Assembly (NCBI GenBank): GCA_002794785.1
Contig: NBBA01000020.1
Coordinates: 310,001 to 374,000 of the forward strand
DNA: 64,000 nucleotides
DNA from: Coniferiporia sulphurascens
Taxonomy: Eukaryota > Basidiomycota > Agaricomycetes > Hymenochaetales > Hymenochaetaceae
Reading direction: 5' to 3'
In this document: positions 24,117-37,604 of the stretch, one piece after another
How the letters are laid out: each line of letters starts with the position of its first letter
Numbering within the stretch: the first letter of the stretch is position 1
Translations under genes and position numbers: made by a program
Notes under the pieces: model-generated
Told to the model about the DNA's origin: nothing
The model's input: only the letters and a program-made list of their open reading frames with translations
Database searches by the model: none

Positions 24117-24529
24117 AGTTAATCACCCTCCCTCCAGCAACATCCATATTGAAGCGGGCATTGACGTGATCCGCGGATACCGACATTATGGTTGAAACCC
24201 GTAATTGGCAATTTTTTGGCATTTCAATTCACTGTTAGGGCACTGGCACTGAGCATAGTGAAACTCCGGGAGCAAAAAAAGCGCTGAACCGAAGGAGGTA
24301 CCCGCCTCGGGTATCCTGGACCTGGCTGTGCGGATATATCCAAAAAGACAATAATCTATCCATACAGACTCACTACTGTATTCCCGAGGGAAAAATTAGT
24401 TTCTCTTTTGCTCGGGAAGAGGATGTACCGGAGGAGGGGATACCGTCAGGGATATCGGAGAGGGATAATAAGCGAGCCTGAGAGAGCCTTTGAATGGTGA
24501 CAAATAGATAATGACAGGGCCAGCTGCGC

Positions 24530-25161
24530 TGGCAACAGAATGGACCCGGCCCCTTTGTTTTGCATTTTCAGTTGCCACCAATAAAAATGCTCGACAGTTT
24601 GGACCCAGCCCCACCTGGGACCCCGGGGACCCGCTTTGTATGTACACGTGATCTATAAATTGGATATGCAAAAACCAGTTGGCAACACGTGTAAAATCTG
24701 TCTACTGGCTTTGTGACGGTCACAGAGATCGGCACACTTACATTTGGAAATTTCTGTGGCATTAGGCGGGCTACAGATTTATTCTTGCATTTTTCACCAA
24801 GTATTCTGCGGCGCGCACAATTAGGAGGAACTGAGCCGTGGTTGACAAACTTGTAGTACGGCGTGCACACTTTCCCGTTTCCGATGCCGACGCCAGAAAC
24901 TCCAAGGATGCTGTTGCACGGACACTTCGTCTGTGCAACGCCTGGCTATTAAAGATGTGTTTTAAGATTAGATTGGTAATATGCCCGTATGTCACGCTGC
25001 AGTGAGCTGGTAATCTGACTGGCGTATTTCTTTTGGTAGTGAGTGACTTGCCGAAATGCCAAGAAATACACTATGGGGTCCTGGTCATAGCTGATTGGTC
25101 CATCGGCTGGGTCCAAGTCGTAGACGCAAAACAAAGGGGCCGGGTCCATTCTGTTGCCATA
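24530..25161. mobile_element. Short non-autonomous TIR element related to the 12-kb element
   Basis: A perfect 33-nt inverted repeat (24531-24563 against 25126-25158, starting ggcaacagaatggacccggc) bounds 0.63 kb. The right end finishes in gttgccata, like the ends of the large element at 25619-37586. Inside the ends are two motifs shared with the corresponding ends of the large element: left, ttggacccagccccacc; right, ttggacccagccgatgg. No coding capacity is seen, and the left outermost TA and a target duplication are not evident. Confidence 0.7.
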
Positions 25162-25612: not shown

Positions 25613-25618
25613 CTAAAC
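25613..25618. repeat. Target-site duplication, left copy (CTAAAC)
   Basis: CTAAAC here and at 37587-37592 flank the TIR element directly. With one copy removed, the host sequence forms a 49-nt intron (gtatgt ... ctaaac ... ttattag). Confidence 0.85.
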
Positions 25619-25644
25619 TATGGCAACAACTTGGCATCAGCTTC
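25619..25644 (+). repeat. Left terminal inverted repeat of the 12-kb element
   Basis: A 26-nt exact match to the reverse complement of 37561-37586. Confidence 0.92.
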
Positions 25645-26405
25645 ACATTTTTCCTTATTTGGGCGCGATGACGGGGTTTGCCGGAAGGTTGGACTCAGCT
25701 CCGCCGTGGACCCCGTGAATCCCTTCGTACGTAACAAGAAAATCATGGATACCAATTAGGTATGTTAGATAGGTCCGCGAAGACACGTATTTGTACTTAA
25801 TTTAGCAAGGGGGCTTATAAGGTATATAGTGTGTTCAACAACATTAATCCTTCTGAACATGGAGGACAATTCTGGGATACAACTGGGGACCTTGTGTGGA
25901 AGAACAAGATTTATGTTATATTCTTTCAGAGTACTAAGTACTAATTACATTATATGAAATCACAATTATACCAAGCCTGCATATAGTACTAGATGTGGAA
26001 TGAATGCAGTACATAATAAAGCATGCTTCCGCCAGGGAAGCTATTATGGTAATTTTGTTATAGAACATGGCATCCTTTACAGTGGGTAAGGAGATCGCCC
26101 TCGTGGGGGGGAGGGGAATGAAATGGTATAGAAAGAGGAGAAAACTTGAAGTCCACTATTAGTTTGAGAATTAATGTCTATAGACTAAATGCTTGAGAAA
26201 AAACTGTCTGGGCTACAAGCCCCCAATCAGTGCAGTGATATGCAACCAAATCCAGAATAAAAAGAAAGGGGAAGCGCAGCAACAACAGCAGCGAAAAAAT
26301 GCATCACTAAGCGACTACGAACTATGAAGTAATTTATGGATGTAGATCTCTCTATTAGCAGCTCCATGCATTGAATCAAGGAATGGTAAAGAAAAAAACA
26401 CTGTT
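25645..26405. other. Left subterminal region of the 12-kb element
   Basis: Contains the subterminal motif ggttggactcagctccgcc at about 25687-25705, similar to 24595-24615. The rest is AT-rich and without a gene I can support. Confidence 0.5.
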
Positions 26406-28918
26406 CTACCTATCCAAAAACTGTTCAGCCATGATTTTAATAGACTTCTGTAGTGGCTTTGATTGCTTTAGCAGCTGCAGAGTCTTCCCCCAACTTGCCT
26501 GGTTTTGAACGTTTGCTTCGCTTTTCCTTATCTTTTCAAGTCTATTGACAAACCACACTTCAGCGGACAAAGACCAAAAACCAGGATTCATTGAGCTATG
26601 TTCCCAAACGTTGCATCTGGGCCACCACGACACATATTCGCACTGCTTGCCATTCCCTGAAGAAAAACGGTAAAAAGAAGGGAATAAGAATATATAATTA
26701 GGAATGAGCTCACTGGTGTACATCTTGTAAACACCGCATATCAGGTCTTCTTCATCCTCGGTGAGTTTGTCATCCCACCAGTCTTGACATTCTTCACCAG
26801 CTGTGTGCGTCTCATATACTACCTCAAGGCGGTCCCCCATTGGACCCGCTAAGACCGCATTGATGGCCTCCTCAAGCCCTATGTGCTCCACAACGAGCCG
26901 CCAGATGATGCCCCCTTTCATTATAGCAGCTTGAATATGAGGATTGCCCTGGACGAAATCAAAGACCTTTTTCGCATATGAAACATAGTCATCTAAGGTA
27001 AGGTCACGCATCTTGTTTCTCCACCCCAGGTCCGTAATGCGCCTTTCCTCGCTGGACGCATTCATTATGGCTGGGGAACTCGTGATCACTGTCCGGAAAC
27101 ATATCCCTTGTAAGACAAGGTAACGACAAATTTCCCATACGTGGTCAACTTCACATCCAAGCCTTAAGCACTGAAGGACGGTGACTGGGTCCATTAGCGC
27201 CATGGACCAACCAAGAGTATGCGTCGACAGCTTCAGTATGTACACGTTAAATGCGATGCAGATTCGCTTGCGACTGTGATGGTCGGTAGTAAGGACTTGA
27301 TGGGAAAGCGTCATAATGCAAACGTTAGAACCACAAAGGTCAGACAACAAATAAATTTTGTTATCCAGGTGTAGGTCGATGAGGTGCTTATAATCATCAC
27401 CAACGGCCCCATTTGAGCTTGCCAGATAGTTAATCAGGACTGTAAGGTTTTCCCGGGCTGAATTTTCCACGTCCTGACCATGTTCGTCACTAATATGAAG
27501 AAGCTTGCAAACCTTCCACCAAGGTGTCTGTGGCATCTTCAATTGTAATGCCTCTATGGCCTGACGATCACATGGACAGGTATAGCCGAACCGCATTCTA
27601 GCTAGCCGTTTGGGGTCATCGAAAACGAGTGACTCTAGCTCGACAGAATCTCTGTCGACTTCAGCCTGCTCACGAATGTCTTTTACGATTTCAGCGGTTT
27701 GTACCAAAGCGAAGGCTTCACCACCATAAACACCGGACTCCAAGATAATACCTGCAGCCCACTTGATGGTGTAGTCATCATCCTCATCGCTCTCCTTGTC
27801 TGACAACAGTGGACCAGCAATCGGCAGAGGGTCGAAAGCGACACATAGATCCCATTCATTATGAAAGCTATTGTAACGTTTTTGGCTGTCCAAATACACT
27901 TCCCATGTTCTTTCAACTTCTGTCCTGCTCACCAGTACTCTCACGAAAATGCCGGTGCGAGGCTCTTCCCATTCGAAAATGCACACGCCTTTCTTCCCCA
28001 GAGGAAGCTTTCATTGTACCTCTCTTTCACGTTGTAAACGAATCGCTTTCCTATCGGAAGCCTCATTCTGCAGTATTTGTTCATTTTCCCTTGCCCTTCT
28101 AATAAAAAATTCTTGCCATGTCTCGCCATCTTGTTGTGAGCTACCAACAGTTGGTACGAGCAACATTTTCCTTTCGCTCTGGGTTCCCTCTGCGGCTTTG
28201 GTGATCAAACCTTCGCCAAGCAACAGTAAAGGCTCGCTCAGTCCCTTGAACCCCCCAGCGCTAAACGCTATTTCTTTGTTGGGAGTTCATATGTCTTCGA
28301 GCTCTTGAGGAGTGGGGCATATTACATTTAACCAGGTGTGCTTTGTGGTATTTACTTGTAAGTCCCATATGAACCAGACAGGGACATCCAGGTCAATAAA
28401 CGTGCAGATGATGTTCAAAAAATGACAGGAGGACAAGCGAACAAATATGCCGTTTCTTGCAACAGTCTTATCCGCAATAGGACTTAGAAGTATATCTTGA
28501 ATCCAAGCCGCAGGAATTTTCCCTGTATCTTGCAGATGGCGGGCCCATATGTCCTCCTCAGGCAACTTCTGTCGGACAGCATAGAGCCTCAGTCGCATAA
28601 TAAGATCTGTCGCGTATGCCATAAGTGGCACGAAAGCGTTGCGAGACTGTTGGGCTGTGTGTCCAGCTTTGACCACATTCGACTGAAATGACGCATAACT
28701 GTAAGTTGACGGCAACCTTGGCTCCTGCATGGTTAGTGGCCAAATGTCAAGCATGGTGTCTGCAAGCTCAGAGACAAGGAATGATATCAACACTTGAAGA
28801 CTAGACTCAAGTGCCTTCCAACTTTCGATAGTGTGCTGCAGAAGGCAAAACCCTTGTGCTCCTCCTCCTTCAATGGGAAACTGTTTTCTGTTAGTAAATT
28901 GATGAAAATCGTGATCGC
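26406..28918 (-). pseudogene. Gene A of the 12-kb element: fungal protein family of unknown function
   Basis: The reading frame continues from about 28918 to 26406 apart from two in-frame TGA codons (28287-28289 and 28011-28013) and an intron at about 26654-26713 (gtgagc ... ttcttcag). Landmarks are MRLRLYAVRQKLPEEDIWAR, then GKIPAAWIQDILLSPIADK, a charged coiled region (FFIRRARENEQILQNEASDR), a central part with CPCDRQAIEAL, and a C-terminal YVSWWPRCNVWEHSSMNPGF with a Trp-rich pattern. I know this pattern from large hypothetical families in Agaricomycetes; no function is assigned. The 5' end is near the AT-rich island and may be incomplete. Confidence 0.6.
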
Positions 28919-28924
28919 CGGATC

Positions 28925-30240
28925 AACAGATTAGCAAGATCGACATGGCAAGACCCGTAAATTTAATCGATACCAGGAACCTGTGCCAATGCTGTAAAGA
29001 TGCAGATCAAGTAGCATGGAAAGCTTTTAATATTGCATGTGCAACAGTAGGACATAATGCAGGATACGACAACTGTCAAATTACATTTGATCATACTACA
29101 AGGGAACAACAAGTGGCAGAAAGGCTAGAAGTAATAATTGAACATAGAGCAACTATGTTCTCATACCAATTGAATAGATATGTAATCAGCGCTTACACAA
29201 GAACCAAGATTTATAATCAGCCACATAATGAATTATGTTATCAAAGGGTGGTTATTACATCAACCAATTATGCAGAAGCGGCACACCAAATAGTACATAC
29301 TATCAATAAACAATTATGAGAACAACTATTTGCATACAAGGCCAACTTCATAGCCAAAGGACACACAACAGTAGATCGAAAGGAACCAAATCAAAGACAG
29401 GAGTTAGTACCAATAGATAAGGAGATTATAATACGATGGTTCAATGATGAACCGTCATATAGAGTCACACCAGGGTATAGCAGGATAACAAACATAAATG
29501 CTATAGGACCTGAAGTGCTCTTTATGCCAATAGATGATAGAACACCAGAACGAACCCCTTTTAACAATATCATGGAAGGAATGACTTAATCTTAGTCTAC
29601 AGTAATAAGTAACAAGCCACAATAAGATAAGATTAAGAAGGCTAGCATAATCGCTGAGCCACACAAATATATCTAAGTGTTTGGCTAAGAATAGCCGATG
29701 GAAGCATGGCAATCAATTGAAGATGTAATTGATGGGAGCCAAGTATAGCGCATTGCACAGTAGAACCAATTAGGAAATAAGGAGAAGCATCATAGATATA
29801 GTAGTATCTGAGAATGGTTAACTTAGGTATTATACTGTATGACTCAATGGAAACTCAGAGAAGGTTCTAGCATAAGATAAAGATAGCATGGTAGGCTGTA
29901 GAACATACTGGAATATATGACTGACTCATAGGAAGTTAAGAATAAGTAAATAGCACATACAGGACTGTACCAGAATATTCCTATGACTTATAAAGCGAGA
30001 GTAGTATGTTGTAGTATCTACCAGAACATAGTAAATAGCATACAACATGTAGGGTATAAAAGCCCAATGTAAAATTGCAGTAAAAAGCAGTTTAATTCAT
30101 CTCTTGTCTCTTACCACCATCATCAGCTCTAACACTCTAGTGAGTGAAGGGTACCAAGCCTACCCTAAACTAACTAGTACTATTGTGTGAATCTGTTATC
30201 ACTTGTTTCTAACCCTTAACCAGGGAGCAAATCTAACACT
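28925..30240 (+). mobile_element. AT-rich island, possible remnant of an LTR retroelement
   Basis: Composition changes abruptly to AT-rich. The right part (about 30007-30238) begins tgttgtag and ends ctaaca, and contains a TATA box (ggtataaaag) followed by a pyrimidine-rich stretch, which looks like an LTR. No target duplication or second LTR is visible and no pol domain is present, so the assignment is weak. It separates the divergent genes A and B and abuts the truncated start of gene B. Confidence 0.35.
28945..29589 (+). pseudogene. Unrecognised AT-rich ORF with one in-frame TGA
   Basis: From ATG at 28945 the frame reads MARPVNLIDTRNLCQCCKDA and continues to TGA at 29317. It then runs on in frame (EQLFAYKANFIAKGHTTVDR) to TAA at 29589, about 214 codons in total. 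Codon use is strongly AT-biased and unlike the neighbours. A Cys-x2-Cys pair lies near the N-terminus. I recognise no family; it could be cargo of the inserted element. Confidence 0.4.
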
Positions 30241-30253
30241 TTTGGCATGCCAA

Positions 30254-31508
30254 AGGTGCTTTTGTTCGCATTGTTGTCACACCACCTGGAAGTCCAGGTC
30301 TTCTTCTCTTATCAATTGTGGCCCAAGGACATGACAACCTTGTTCCTTTTGTCTTCTCCCAACCTGCTGAAATAGACATGGGGGCATTTGCTCGAGATTT
30401 TAAGGACACTTTATGTCTTAATAGGAGTATTACCGACAATCAAAAATGCCTTGATGATATTATCCACCGGTTTGCACCCGGTCTAGGTTCATATATCGAG
30501 CGTAACCTATCACCAAACATTTCCGCTGTATGTCCTACCACTATCGTGTCAAGTCCAAGTCCAAGTCCAAGTCCAAGTCCAAGTCGACAATCATATGCTG
30601 GTGAATCAATTGTGGAGGTAATCCCAGCTAGCCATTGCTTGGAGGAATTCTGGCATTCATTTAAGGCATACCCTAAATGCATGCCCATTAGTTCTGCTGA
30701 ACTTCAATGGGCAAAAGGCAATGAAGACCAACAAATACCATATCAGGAGGAAGCGCTGTCCCGTTGAATGCTCCTCAGTGATGACCTTGGGTCCCCCTCC
30801 CCATTTATATTGCAACGTCTCAATACACAAAGTGGAATGTTCAGTGCAATGGTATCGAGGGGCATCACGTTTAGCTCATCCTTCCTACTGAAATTGGGTA
30901 TGTCTTATCCAATCTATACTGTATTAACAAATGTAATGATAATGATAACATTGGCTCAAGGTCACACATATTTCAATGACTTGGAGGCCTTCCGACAAAA
31001 GATGAAGGGGTTGGGGCAAGGTGCCATGTGCAATCCATCTGCTTATGGGAGCCACTGCATGTACCATTCCCCTGGCAATGCAAGTCAATATTGGCACTTT
31101 GCACAGGCATTCCTGCAGGAGGATGTGTCGGGATTTATAGAGGCTGAACGATGGCTTCGAGGGCAACTTCAGGGATTTGGGAAACTTACCTCTTTACTAT
31201 TCTGCATAGATTTTGTCTACGCAGGATATCTTGAGCACCCTGCAGACAGGGACTTCATACGATCTTTCCTATCCTTGGAGAAAGGAAGTGTGAAGGCTTT
31301 GCGTTTACTAAAGGTCATTCCAAATCATGGAAGGGCAACAGCCATACAAAATATAGAGAAAGTGAGGAGGCTATTTACTGAGATGAAAAACGCCATTTGT
31401 GGACATAATGCCACGGGATCATCGTCTTCAGATATAGTTGCACACTCTTTTGATATCTTTATTTTTGAGCACCTATTGTGCAAGTTTGCGCACTTTCATT
31501 CTAAATGA
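30254..31508 (+). pseudogene. Gene B of the 12-kb element: unknown protein
   Basis: Open from about 30254 (HAKGAFVRIVVTPPGSPGLL) to 31508, apart from one TGA at 30765-30767 in frame. The first part contains VPFVFSQPAEIDMGAFARDF and a Ser-Pro hexanucleotide repeat (SPSPSPSPSPS). The second has an AEL-like helix around FNDLEAFRQKMKGLGQG and YWHFAQAFLQEDVSGFIEAE. I do not recognise the family. The 5' exon(s) appear to be cut off by the AT-rich island: the frame directly upstream has a TAA at the junction. It is convergent with the integrase-like gene. Confidence 0.5.
30550..30588 (+). repeat. Hexanucleotide microsatellite (aagtcc)n in gene B
   Basis: About six tandem aagtcc units encode a Ser-Pro run. 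Copy number is probably variable. Confidence 0.85.
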
Positions 31509-31534
31509 CAAAATTATTGTAATTGGGACAAAAT

Positions 31535-33285
31535 TTAATCATCTTTACCAGTTTCCCAACCTCCATCCTCGTCTTCTCCTGTGTCCTCATCCGAAAAGTC
31601 AACATATGTGTCTGCATACATCCCATCATCCATATCACCCAGACCTTCTCCATCAACATTGGCGTTCTGTTTCCTTTTATTGTACGCTTGCTGTTCTGCA
31701 ACTGCCCGGAGCTCCCTGTAGCCTTGCAAAAGCTCCATTGGTTCTGATGTACCCTCTTCTGCATCTCAGGACAAACTAATCCAGTCTAAATCACTTTGGG
31801 GGTCTTGCACCTCATGTTCATGTCTAAATGCCTGAACCATAGAATTGTATACATTCCAGAAAGAATTGATGTTGACAGCAGGCCGCTGTAAGGCGTTATA
31901 GTGTTGCTCTGCATGCAAATGGAAAGCAGGAGGGACAAGACGAAAGATGGGATGATCTTTGGGTGCCCAGCAGGCTTCTGCGTCCTTCAGTATGTCAGAA
32001 TCTGGTTCAATAAGGATCTGTAGTGGATTAGAACTGAGTCCAAGGGAAATTTGGAGACGCATGCACACCTTAAAGTCATTGTGCTTGATCAGATGGGGGT
32101 GCTGAAAAAGCAGCGAAGGGATTCCTTTCGGCAGGAGTTTTGTCTTTGAAGCATGCCTGGGGGTATTGTTAAAAATCTCAACCCACGAGTCCAGTTGTGC
32201 TTGCATCCATGGTATAGCTAGCCATCGATAGACTAACCTAAAAGAAAAGATTTTAAAAGGATGAAGGCAGATGAAGGGGGCATCCATACTTTTCAATAGG
32301 ATCCTCTGAGTTGTACCAGCCATGGTGGTCGCTGTCCCCCTCTTCAAGCATAGTCTGAAAGCCTGTGGTGGAGTTGCACCTAAAGCTGGACCAAAATATC
32401 TCTGGTTTGATGTTTTGGTGTTTTTGCATCCAGCAGTGCTGAATGGTGTTGGCTAAGTCAGGGTCAAGTGATTGTCTGACGAAAGTCTGTATATTAGCTG
32501 GACCAAAGTTTTCCAACCCCGGATCGCTCTGCATCAGCATAGGAAGGGCTGAGAAAGAATCAGCATTGCGGGCATATGAGCAGGTATGGTAGGCGCACCT
32601 CCCAACTTCTGAACTGCTTCTATGAAAAATCCTCCTGTAAGGCGAGGATTCTTGTTGGTCCACCACACTTTTGCCCATATGACATAACCAGAAAATGGTT
32701 CAACACAAATGTGAAACCACAAATCAAGTTTTCCCATCTTATCGTGCTGATCCATGGTCCACAGTTCATTCACACCCGCACTTATGAACTGCCGTCGTTT
32801 AAACCATCTTGCCTTGCAGTCTTGAACAGCCTGTGGTTCAACCTCACGCAGCAATTCCAAAACTATATCTCTAGTGAATTCAGGTGAGCATATACATCTA
32901 ATGAACATTGGACTAGCATACTCTCTGACCAACTGTCCATGTATAGTTCGCAATCTCTTTTGGATGGATCATGCACCCATGTTGGGGAAGTCTTCTTTGA
33001 TTGCAGCCAGGCTCTCTCTGATGTCCTCTTTAGAAAGTTTCATGGACTTCATTGACAAAACATTGCAGCGCTTTCTATAGTGCTTGATTGTGTTAATGCT
33101 GCCAGAGAACACATGCTATAAGATCAATGCGCAGAGGGCAGAGGGAATCCCAGGACGCACCTGACCCCATACTTCGTCAAGTCTATTCTGTCTCGGATGA
33201 TTGGGAGCATTTTTTGGCTGCTTAGTCCCATGTGAACGTACTTAAGCACCATAGGCCCCAGCACATCGTCTGGCGCTTGAAGGGC
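31535..33285 (-). pseudogene. rva_4-type integrase core gene, candidate transposase
   Basis: An upstream exon reads VLGPMVLKYVHMGLSSQKML. The next reads INTIKHYRKRCNVLSMKSMK, a helix-turn-helix-like region, then FPNMGA and a TGA at 32969-32971. The catalytic part has LWTMDQHDKMG with the first Asp, GYVIWAKVWWTN, then, after a 51-nt intron, LMQSDPGLENFG with the second Asp and HQNIKPEIFWS with the probable Glu. After another short intron come LVYRWLAIPWMQAQLDSWVE and a C-terminal domain. A second TGA at 31766-31768 precedes an acidic tail (DFSDEDTGEDEDGG). This matches the fungal integrase-core (rva_4) family, a DDE-type fold. It is the only recombinase-like gene in the TIR element, hence the proposed transposase. 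The two TGA codons suggest decay. Confidence 0.75.
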
Positions 33286-33577
33286 AGTTTAGTCAAATTA
33301 ATAAAAACCTTTGAGGTATGCAACTAATCACTTATGTGCTGGAAGATATTGATTTCTCCTTGCCTCAGCCATGTGCTGTGGTTGGAGTGCCAGATACTTG
33401 CTCACTCGCAAATGCAGGGCCATCTACCTGCAGTCCGCAAATCTTTCTGAAGTCACGTGGAATGGGGGTTTATAGTTTTAAAAAGGATTTTATTCAAAAT
33501 TTATAAATATAATGCTGTGAAAAACCACTACTTGACCATGGACAAAAAAACACAGCTATTTCTATGCTCCGACAGGA
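33286..33577. other. Spacer between integrase-like and alpha-kinase genes
   Basis: No conserved gene is seen. It probably holds the 3' end of the alpha-kinase transcript and the promoter or first exon of the integrase-like gene. Confidence 0.35.
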
Positions 33578-36500
33578 TTATTTCTTTCCTAGCACCAGGT
33601 TAGAAATACTCATATCCAGTTCTCCCTCATCTTCATTACTTCCTAATTCGGCCAGGCGGTGGATGGATTTACCGTCACTCGTGGAGGCGCTCATAGACGC
33701 AGCAGAAACTTCTGGTAGCTCAAAATAGGCACAATATTTGTTGCATTGATGCTCTGTCTCAAAGCGGTCAAATACACCAGGGATGTTTCCCATCACAAAA
33801 AGCTCCCCAAGGTCACTGAAGGCAGACAGCGTAAGTCAGTGAATTCGGTAAAACTATCCCTTCCTATGCACGGATTTGTCATTATCTGTGGGTCAGTCAA
33901 GAGGGTCATACTCCCTAAATGCATTGTCAGACCAGTATCTAATCCATATCGGTGACGGCTTACCTTGAAAGTCTGATATGAAAGCCAGCTTCTTCATCTT
34001 CAGGTACTGGTAATGCTGTGTGCAGCACAAGAATTCTGCACAATGGATGTGCTCCTCCAATTTCAGCCAAATGGGAATTACAGTGCTACCATTGCTGATG
34101 AACTTGACAAATTGTTCCTCAATTTCCTCTTCGAGTAGAAATGCCTCCCTAGGCTGGTCCTGGCTCCAAATGGTCTCCATGGCCAGGGCTGACTTGACAA
34201 AGTGAGGGCGATAGATCGGAAAGGGGGGAGGCTGGTTCTTGAGAAGATGATGATCAATGAAGGTGTAGAACATCTTCATTAGGGAATCTGCCCAGATGAG
34301 ACACATGACCTCCATTGTCAGAGCCTCCACCTGCTTATCTCCCGCCTCTGGAATACAGTGGCCCTGGTCTGTGATCCTGAACACTTGCTTACAGCAAACT
34401 GTATCCCCAAATAGCATTGAAGGAGTCAATTTTCCAAAGCGGGCCATCTTCACGGCTCCGTACTTGATGGTAGCTGAGCGGATGGGTCTGATCAAAAGAT
34501 CTGCCCCGACTTGCTGCTTCCCAAGATACCGTTTGAGTGTATCGACATGGGGTGTATATGTGAAGGCTAAAAGCTCCTCCATAGTCAGAGAGGGACACAT
34601 GTTCACGGTTAGGGTCTTCTTGTCCAAGTCAACTGTAATAATCCAATTTGTAAGTAGCATCCTGAACTCACTGTTCGATTGAACCTACACAGATTTCTTG
34701 CAGCAGACCCGGAAACCATAGGTTGATGTGAGCGTAGGGCCAATTGTAGTAGAGCATGGTCGGGAGATGCAATAGGCGGTGGGGGTGGCACTCCATCATC
34801 CTGATGCCATTTAGAGGGTGGCGTTACAGGGTCTCTGCTTTGCTGGTAAGAGATACTACCATTGAGACATGAATATGCCACAGACAAACTTCAAGACAAA
34901 CTGGAAGAGGTCTTTTCCCATGAGTGGGAGTAAGGGGCAGGTCATCTTCCACTTCCACTATGGATCTTGCATGATGGTTATAAGCCTTTCCCTTCCCCTT
35001 CACTCTCTTTAAAGTCCAAAGCCCATATCATTAGTGGTATCCAAAAAAGCAGGGAAGTTCTGAAATGCACTTTTGAAGCGGCTCTAGTGGTAGGTCCACT
35101 CCGTCCCTTTGAGCATCCAGAAGACCCTCCATTTGGACTTCCATTCCCACCCACCAGGCCATCACCACCACCACCACCACCTAGGCCATCATCATCCGGG
35201 CCATCATCACCATCATCACCATGCCCATTTTGGGAAAGCTCTTGCTGCTCGCTCCAAACCTTGTATTCACTGTACTTCTGATTGCTGATCACAAAAAAAA
35301 TCCCAAAAGACTTGCTGGGAGGGCACAGGGTGACCAACCCATTATGACCGGAAGTGGCTGTTAAGCTCAACGGTTACGCAGTGATCGACGTCGGGGCTTC
35401 CTGATCGTCGGAACTGATGGTACGGCAATGGGGCTTCCTAGATGTCATAAGTCAAAGGTGATCGTCGATGGGTTCTTCCTGATCGACGATATAGGCATGA
35501 TAGACCTTCTGAGTGGAGTCGGGTTATGACAAAGTGATCTGTGGCACAACAACACACAGTAGACTGGTGGTAGCAGATAATGGGCTTGTATGAACAAAGA
35601 GCACAAGCTTAGGGCTTGTGCTACTGAAGTTTACATGCTTATATGCTACTCTATGTGTTTGCTACTGTAGGGTCATTGTATTAGGTTGTTTACATGGCTA
35701 TGGAAGGTCATGGAAACCCAAGGAAGGTCTTGGTAATACAGGTGAAGGTATCAGTAAGCAAAGCACATCATGATGGTGCAATATGGCGACATCATGGCAT
35801 CTTATGGTGCAAGGCGAATAAGGATGAGTAAGACAGAGAAATGGGGGAGTTGTGCTGACTGATGATGACAAAGAGGAAGTGAGTCAGCGCATTGAGGGAA
35901 AGTAAAGGAAAATTGTAACAGTGGCCCTAAACTCGGATATCAAGCATCCCATGTCTGGGCCTTCAGGTCTGCAGATGATCTCTGCATTATTGGCTTTCTT
36001 CTTCATTGTGAAGTCGTGAATACTGATTTGAGTGAACCCCTTGGAATGTTCAACCCATAAAGGGTAAAGCACCAGGTAGACAATGTTCTTCAATTCATAC
36101 TCCCCTATTTGCATGGGCATGTATTCAATAGTTTTTCGCATCTAAAGGAATTAAATTATTAGCAATCCTGAATGTAATTAATGTCCACAACTACCTCTCC
36201 TATGATGAGCTTTCTGGTCTGGCCAGCTGGTTCCCTTATCCCAAAGGCCTCGATGGTGAAAAGTGAGCTGGTTCTGGCATAGGAGTCCCTAAGCATCTGG
36301 TCCTGGACCTCTTTGTATTCAGAGTGTTCAGGGGTGTAGCCATTGGCGAACACCAGCCTAGACTGCGCCCACCTCATGGATGGACTAGGAGAAGGGCCTT
36401 GGAAACGCACCCCTAGTACATTCAAATCTGGCCCTGTCCCATCCTGATTCTGTAAGGAATATGAGGTAAATAATCTTTAGTGGGCCCTGGTAGAGAAAAA

Positions 36501-37038
36501 TTATGCACTGCATGCACACCATACTGTGAGTGACTTGGTATAGTAACTGGCGGGGGCATGGACATCTGGGAAGACCCTGCTCCAGCCGCCCCTGAAAGGC
36601 CCTGAACCATCGCCCTTGATTCTGAGCATAATAAATTTATTAATTGCATATATGCTGCTAGTATACTTCCAGAAGGTACTGACCTCCACGCTGTCCAGCA
36701 GCAACCTGTTTTCTAACCAGTGCTGTCTGGGGCCCAGGTGCACTCCCTTCCCCTCTTACATCTAAGGGATTGGAATTGCATTAGAAGGTAGGCTAGACAT
36801 AACAGGATTTTACAATGTACCCACCTCTGGTATCTCCTCGCAAGATGGTGGTAGGCTTGCTGCTGTAGTAGTCCATACAAGACCGACACACCATATGCAC
36901 AACATTCACATCATGCTTGTCCCCAAGCCAATGGAACTTGTAAGTAGAGGGAAACTGTACATCACATTTTTCACAAGTCTTTAAACACTGTGTGCTTTTT
37001 GTGAAGGAAGCAGCAATGATTAGGGGAGGCTCAGACAT
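33578..37038 (-). pseudogene. Alpha-kinase gene with N-terminal zinc-finger-like exon, split by a solo LTR
   Basis: Exon 1 (from 37038) has Cys pairs C-x2-C and C-x2-C (CEKC, CRSC), followed by DYYSSKPTT. Low-complexity and conserved middle exons follow, for example VRFQGPSPSPSMRWAQSRLV. The kinase part has NWIITVDLDKKTLTVNM, AFLLEEEIEEQFVKFISNG and then, across a 47-nt intron, DFQG joined to LLTDPQIMTNP. These last two are the hallmark of the alpha-kinase (MHCK/eEF2K) family. The C-terminus has VFDRFETEHQCNKYCAYF, the zinc-binding end of the domain. A chromovirus solo LTR (35359-35920) interrupts a coding exon at its GCCAC site. One exon junction near 34660-34690 is unclear. The gene is probably cargo of the TIR element; its role there is unknown. 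Confidence 0.75.
35354..35925 (-). mobile_element. Solo LTR of the chromovirus with TSD GTGGC
   Basis: The LTR (35359-35920, 562 bp) has TGTTA/TAACA ends and matches the LTRs at 13883 and 20844, with internal differences around 35450-35540. It is flanked by GTGGC at 35354-35358 and 35921-35925. Removing it and one GTGGC copy keeps the alpha-kinase reading frame open across the site, so it is a late insertion that lost its internal part by LTR-LTR recombination. Confidence 0.93.
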
Positions 37039-37560
37039 TGCCCCAGGTAGAACTTTTTGGCTGACTCGGAGACGAGACGCTCATCCCATTCCACTCCTTC
37101 AGTCTATTTGTACCCAATATACTAAGCGATTTATATTGATTGGTCCCCTGCATTCTTATTGATTTCTCCCTCATGCATGTTTTCTCGTTAACCCTCAACT
37201 TAAGAGTCACTCAGGCCATATGTTTATGCTTTTGTTGGTCCAAAAGATTGCCCATCATAGAAGCAAAGTGGCTTGCCATCAAGAAGCTCTATTCATTTTC
37301 GGCTTCCCATACATATACATATTATATATATAGAAGTATAATACAAAATTGTCTTGGTAATCTGTGCTTATGGCATATAGGTACTGTACAGTTGCTTGCC
37401 TTTCACGTGACCTATGCAGCACCCCAGTTACTGTGACCAACGGTGACAGATTAACTGAGAGCGTTTTTATACTATTTATATTTATTGTCCTCCATTCCTC
37501 CGGGGTCCCGCTCAATTTGATTGGCCCCATCAGCGGGCTCCAATTCGACACAGCCATAAC
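37039..37560. other. Right subterminal region of the 12-kb element
   Basis: Contains the right subterminal motif (on the minus strand ttggagcccgctgatggggc, about 37520-37540) shared with the 24530-25161 element. It probably also holds the promoter of the alpha-kinase gene. No other gene is seen. Confidence 0.5.
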
Positions 37561-37586
37561 GAAGCTGATGCCAAGTTGTTGCCATA
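37561..37586 (-). repeat. Right terminal inverted repeat of the 12-kb element
   Basis: An exact inverted copy of 25619-25644, followed by the CTAAAC duplication at 37587-37592. Confidence 0.92.
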
Positions 37587-37604
37587 CTAAACTGGATTAT
37601 TAGG

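Follow-up and report, generated by a model that had tools for sequence, protein, structure and literature searches.

A decayed, probably IS3EU-type DNA transposon carrying an alpha-kinase gene in the fungus Coniferiporia sulphurascens

DNA transposons of the IS3EU (IS3EU/GingerRoot) superfamily are described as having TA..TA termini, usually 6-bp target site duplications, and a DDE transposase related to those of IS3 and IS481 (PMC10045372). For fungal members, the duplications are reported as 6 bp and the ends as TAYGG..CCRTA (stated for rusts), with an alpha-kinase gene beside the transposase (PMC12730594), and elements combining a TET/JBP gene with the alpha-kinase are known from Pucciniales and Tuber indicum (Kojima 2025, PMC12730594). 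IS3EU elements have also been annotated in the mushroom-forming fungi Ganoderma leucocontextum (PMC8955403) and Phlebopus portentosus (PMC12411881), where comparison runs through repeat counts and not gene content. Statements on these four papers, here and below, extend to the available parts of their text. The present analysis concerns a 64,000-nt stretch of Coniferiporia sulphurascens DNA, hereafter the window (positions 310,001 to 374,000 of contig NBBA01000020.1, or C20:310001-374000 with contigs numbered C1, C2 and so on), from a 39.3-Mb assembly of 31 contigs. Within the window lies an 11,968-bp element (25619-37586) that is very likely an IS3EU transposon of autonomous type, now decayed, since its TATGG..CCATA ends, 6-bp duplication, IS481/IS3-like DDE transposase and alpha-kinase gene fit the published description. 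Both the superfamily and the kinase passenger are already described, and the element is a new member with a different gene arrangement, which does not amount to a new kind. The initial annotation, in which recombinase type and gene set were not recognised from any described fungal family, is superseded on this point by published alpha-kinase-bearing IS3EU elements (PMC12730594, PMC10045372). What the locus adds is an alpha-kinase-bearing IS3EU whose gene order is unlike that described for rusts and a truffle in the available text (PMC12730594).

Termini, target site and a second copy

The inverted ends of the element are exact over 26 nt. By inverted-repeat comparison, the left terminal inverted repeat (TIR), TATGGCAACAACTTGGCATCAGCTTC, occupies 25619-25644 on the plus strand and the right TIR 37561-37586 on the minus strand, and the target site duplication CTAAAC can be read on either side at 25613-25618 and 37587-37592. 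With up to three mismatches allowed, the inner 20 nt of the ends matched the window at the two ends only, and none of 100 shuffles contained a match. The ends and their flanks thus stand as first annotated. A host gene had also been proposed to read on across the site; this proposal is not supported, as 75 of 300 dinucleotide shuffles gave a frame at least as good as the best open one over the joined flanks (136 nt on the shorter side). As a possible subterminal binding motif, TTGGACCCAGC was matched 22 times in the window, where 14.9 matches would be expected, an excess too weak for a claim.

Another full-length copy, strongly diverged, is present in the same assembly (C10:475906-497589). Its ends read TATGGCAACAGA... 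and are related to those of the window element, its TIR extends over about 35 nt with two mismatches (judged by eye), and CAATTG lies on either side. Both full-length copies therefore have TATGG..CCATA termini and a 6-bp duplication. Four genes, namely the transposase, the alpha-kinase and two of unrecognised family termed A and B, are colinear between the copies; the five matching blocks measure 126-738 nt and are 66-75% identical at the DNA level. The combination of related ends, a different duplication and the same gene order indicates a genuine unit that has been mobile. A kinase scan of the genome found the second copy as the one other locus (57% identical), and protein searches with the kinase and transposase together with an alpha-kinase family scan returned these two copies only; copy counts from such searches are lower bounds. 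The second copy is broken up by a non-LTR retrotransposon and several pieces of long terminal repeats (LTRs), and its gene A is truncated.

Genes within the element

The DDE integrase-type transposase gene contains introns and lies at 31703-33252 on the minus strand (ends approximate; from reading frames, Pfam and relatives). For both it and the kinase gene, the models were built manually, guided by reading frames, boundaries that resemble splice sites and correspondence to the second copy. The rva_4 family is matched by 11 of 14 transposase relatives at E <= 0.1, the closest of which, P0001, scores 39.3 bits and has a retroviral-type integrase fold. Relatives occur in Hygrophoropsis, Suillus, Schizopora, Psilocybe and Phellinidium. 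The D, D and E residues are invariant in all 10 alignment rows. These results bear out the DDE integrase-like gene of the initial annotation. Weak profile matches to IS481 (6/14) and IS3 (1/14) also occur among the relatives; the resemblance to bacterial IS481/IS3 transposases is at this level, and the genes of the element differ in being intron-containing, eukaryotic and accompanied by passengers. A scan of the C. sulphurascens genome for the rva_4 family gave no match, as did its controls. Turning to another group of transposons, Starships are characterised by a tyrosine recombinase captain (DUF3435); no such captain was matched in the 10 frames scanned with Pfam out of 48 listed, and a DDE transposase is present instead.

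The alpha-kinase gene, supported by Pfam, reading frames and the second copy, lies at 33579-37038 on the minus strand (ends approximate), contains introns and is split by a solo LTR at 35359-35920. Its Alpha_kinase domain scores 34.7 bits against a Pfam cut-off of 21.3, and the cut-off is exceeded in both copies, with one TGA inside the second-copy gene. A zinc-finger-like Cx2C...Cx2C segment opens the gene in both, in agreement with the N-terminus first noted. Comparison of the window kinase with PDB sequences gave no meaningful match. Within this genome the alpha-kinase family was found in the two element copies only, so that tallies of alpha-kinases in genomes of this kind may in part be tallies of transposons. 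A literature search for an alpha-kinase associated with a transposable element and an integrase in Agaricomycetes found no paper.

Genes A and B remain unrecognised, as they were at the outset, with no Pfam family above cut-off. Gene A (26406-28888, minus strand) has its 5' end cut off at the LTR beginning at 28889, and gene B (30239-31508, plus strand) lacks its N-terminal part and has a colinear relative in the second copy. Five relatives of gene A were found among 7997 candidates scored, and the model of one, P0015, has a mean pLDDT (predicted local distance difference test) of 35.3. Gene A paralogues outside the elements lie, for example, at C2:480646, C1:334166, C14:992390, C6:1468891, C18:596210 and C19:186925. 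Considered as a possible further element, the C2 locus, the one examined, showed LTR pieces over 18 kb, and the best matches listed there included neither a transposase nor a kinase. Across paralogues and both element copies, 24 of the 33 in-frame stops listed for gene A are TGA, the pattern expected of CGA to TGA changes; some of the 33 may lie in introns. Genes A and B are offered for study as two uncharacterised accessory genes.

One further frame is present in the second copy, between A and B at about 10.3-11.7 kb from its left end, broken by the non-LTR retrotransposon and solo LTRs. On account of an HxD...H-like motif, we provisionally take it to resemble TET/JBP dioxygenases. Against the Tet_JBP family the frame reaches E 0.13 and 12 bits, compared with a Pfam cut-off of 34.9; no relative was found at E <= 0.001 among 7201 candidates, and no meaningful match among PDB sequences. 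The window copy has no TET/JBP-like frame, and none was seen between transposase and kinase in either copy. Neither PF12851 nor PF20515 was matched when the genome was scanned for them, and the control genomes of one of these scans were also without a match.

Assignment to IS3EU and rival explanations

By description, the element shares TA..TA ends, the 6-bp duplication and the DDE transposase with IS3EU/GingerRoot (PMC10045372), and the ends, the 6-bp duplication and the pairing of transposase with alpha-kinase with the TET-bearing fungal elements (PMC12730594). Several points weigh against the assignment. The integrase exon of the window scores 17.5 bits against rva_4, below the cut-off of 26, and P0001 scores 24.3 bits against IS481, far under the cut-off of 224. 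The assignment is based on published descriptions and not on a tree with IS3EU reference sequences. About nine further loci carry gene A but not this transposase or kinase; the gene is thus not exclusive to the element, in which it may be a shared passenger. All four genes recur together in the second copy. As far as the available text of PMC12730594 goes, transposase and kinase of the TET-bearing elements are in opposite orientation, whereas here both are on the minus strand, and rust TIRs exceed 30 nt, compared with 26 nt in the window. The same text places the TET/JBP gene between transposase and kinase, whereas in the second copy the weak frame is found between A and B; the presence of genes A and B beside transposase and kinase is a further feature of the element, for which comparison with the published TET-bearing families is partial.

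Some of these differences would suit a new superfamily of large fungal transposons apart from IS3EU, in which 6-bp duplications and an alpha-kinase arose by convergence. The shared strand of transposase and kinase, the presence of genes A and B and the weak matches to IS481/IS3 models all favour it; however, the terminal pentanucleotide, the duplication length and the unusual passenger gene are the same as in published IS3EU, and we regard such a superfamily as improbable. Polintons (Mavericks) also use an integrase and leave 6-bp duplications, and they encode polymerase B, a packaging ATPase, a protease and capsid proteins. A degenerate Polinton could explain the duplication, the retroviral-type integrase fold and the several genes, but none of these four families was found in the 10 Pfam-scanned frames of 48, the TIRs are short and an alpha-kinase is present, which makes this origin barely credible. 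That the inverted repeats surround ordinary host genes by chance found no supporting point and is refuted by the shuffles and by the second copy, which is colinear and has a 6-bp duplication of its own.

If the element is an IS3EU transposon, the IS481/IS3-like DDE transposase would bind to its TATGG..CCATA ends and cut the element out, presumably by cut-and-paste. The ends would then be joined to the target across a 6-bp stagger, the repair of which would leave the duplication. The alpha-kinase with its zinc-finger-like N-terminus and genes A and B would travel as passenger or accessory genes, and might help to regulate the transposase or host silencing. A bolder proposal, which we consider unlikely, is that the two copies represent a separate agaricomycete IS3EU lineage with its own layout (A on minus, dioxygenase-like gene and B on plus, transposase and kinase on minus), and that its TET/JBP-type dioxygenase was gained independently of the rust and truffle lineages to counter CpG methylation, the apparent cause of the erosion of both copies.

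Nested LTRs, decay and remnants

The initial annotation described a large cargo-bearing DNA transposon. Transposon and cargo hold, and about 1.9 kb of the 12 kb belongs to two nested solo LTRs. One of these, 562 nt long with the 5-bp duplication GTGGC (35359-35920), is inside the kinase gene, and the other, of 1350 bp (TGTTAG..CTAACA; 28889-30238), sits at the point where A and B lack their 5' parts. The latter is without a 5-bp duplication here, an exact one being present at 18 of 30 fetched copies. Because the duplication and the 5' parts of both genes are absent, the arrangement suggests that the region between A and B was deleted by recombination between two LTRs.

In-frame TGA codons occur in the transposase (32969-32971 and 31766-31768, both in the frame that is conserved among relatives), in gene A (28287-28289 and 28011-28013) and in gene B (30765-30767). 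Given these nonsense codons, the solo LTR in the kinase gene and the missing A-B region, the window copy is dead. The window element has a CpG observed/expected ratio of 0.47 and the second copy one of 0.41, compared with 0.89 and 1.02 in the flanks, as would be expected from loss of methylated CpG. The ratio is low in the nested LTRs too (0.38 and 0.60).

A separate, internally deleted element of 634 bp (24528-25161) with second-copy ends sits 457 bp upstream of the window element. It has 34-nt exact inverted repeats and a less reduced CpG ratio of 0.80; identity to the second copy is 88% over the outer 115 nt of one side and 85% over the outer 108 nt of the other, its left end has GC in place of TA, and it has no 6-bp duplication. 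A genome scan for the end pattern with up to two mismatches returned nothing beyond the two ends of the window element, the two of the second copy and one end of this 634-bp element. Three mismatches added seven further matches, one of them an isolated right end, of the same type as in the window element, at C7:620021-620159, compared with three for the reversed-pattern control. A single end-like match with two mismatches lies at C8:260874.

As for the 1350-bp LTR itself, 39 near-full genome matches of at least 91% identity are listed, and its open frame spans 134 codons in the window copy and 212 in the second element. Two of its copies, L003 (C7:394487) and L005 (C7:398914), have reciprocally swapped flanking 5-mers (GTCAC/CTCCC), a pattern as left by recombination between them.
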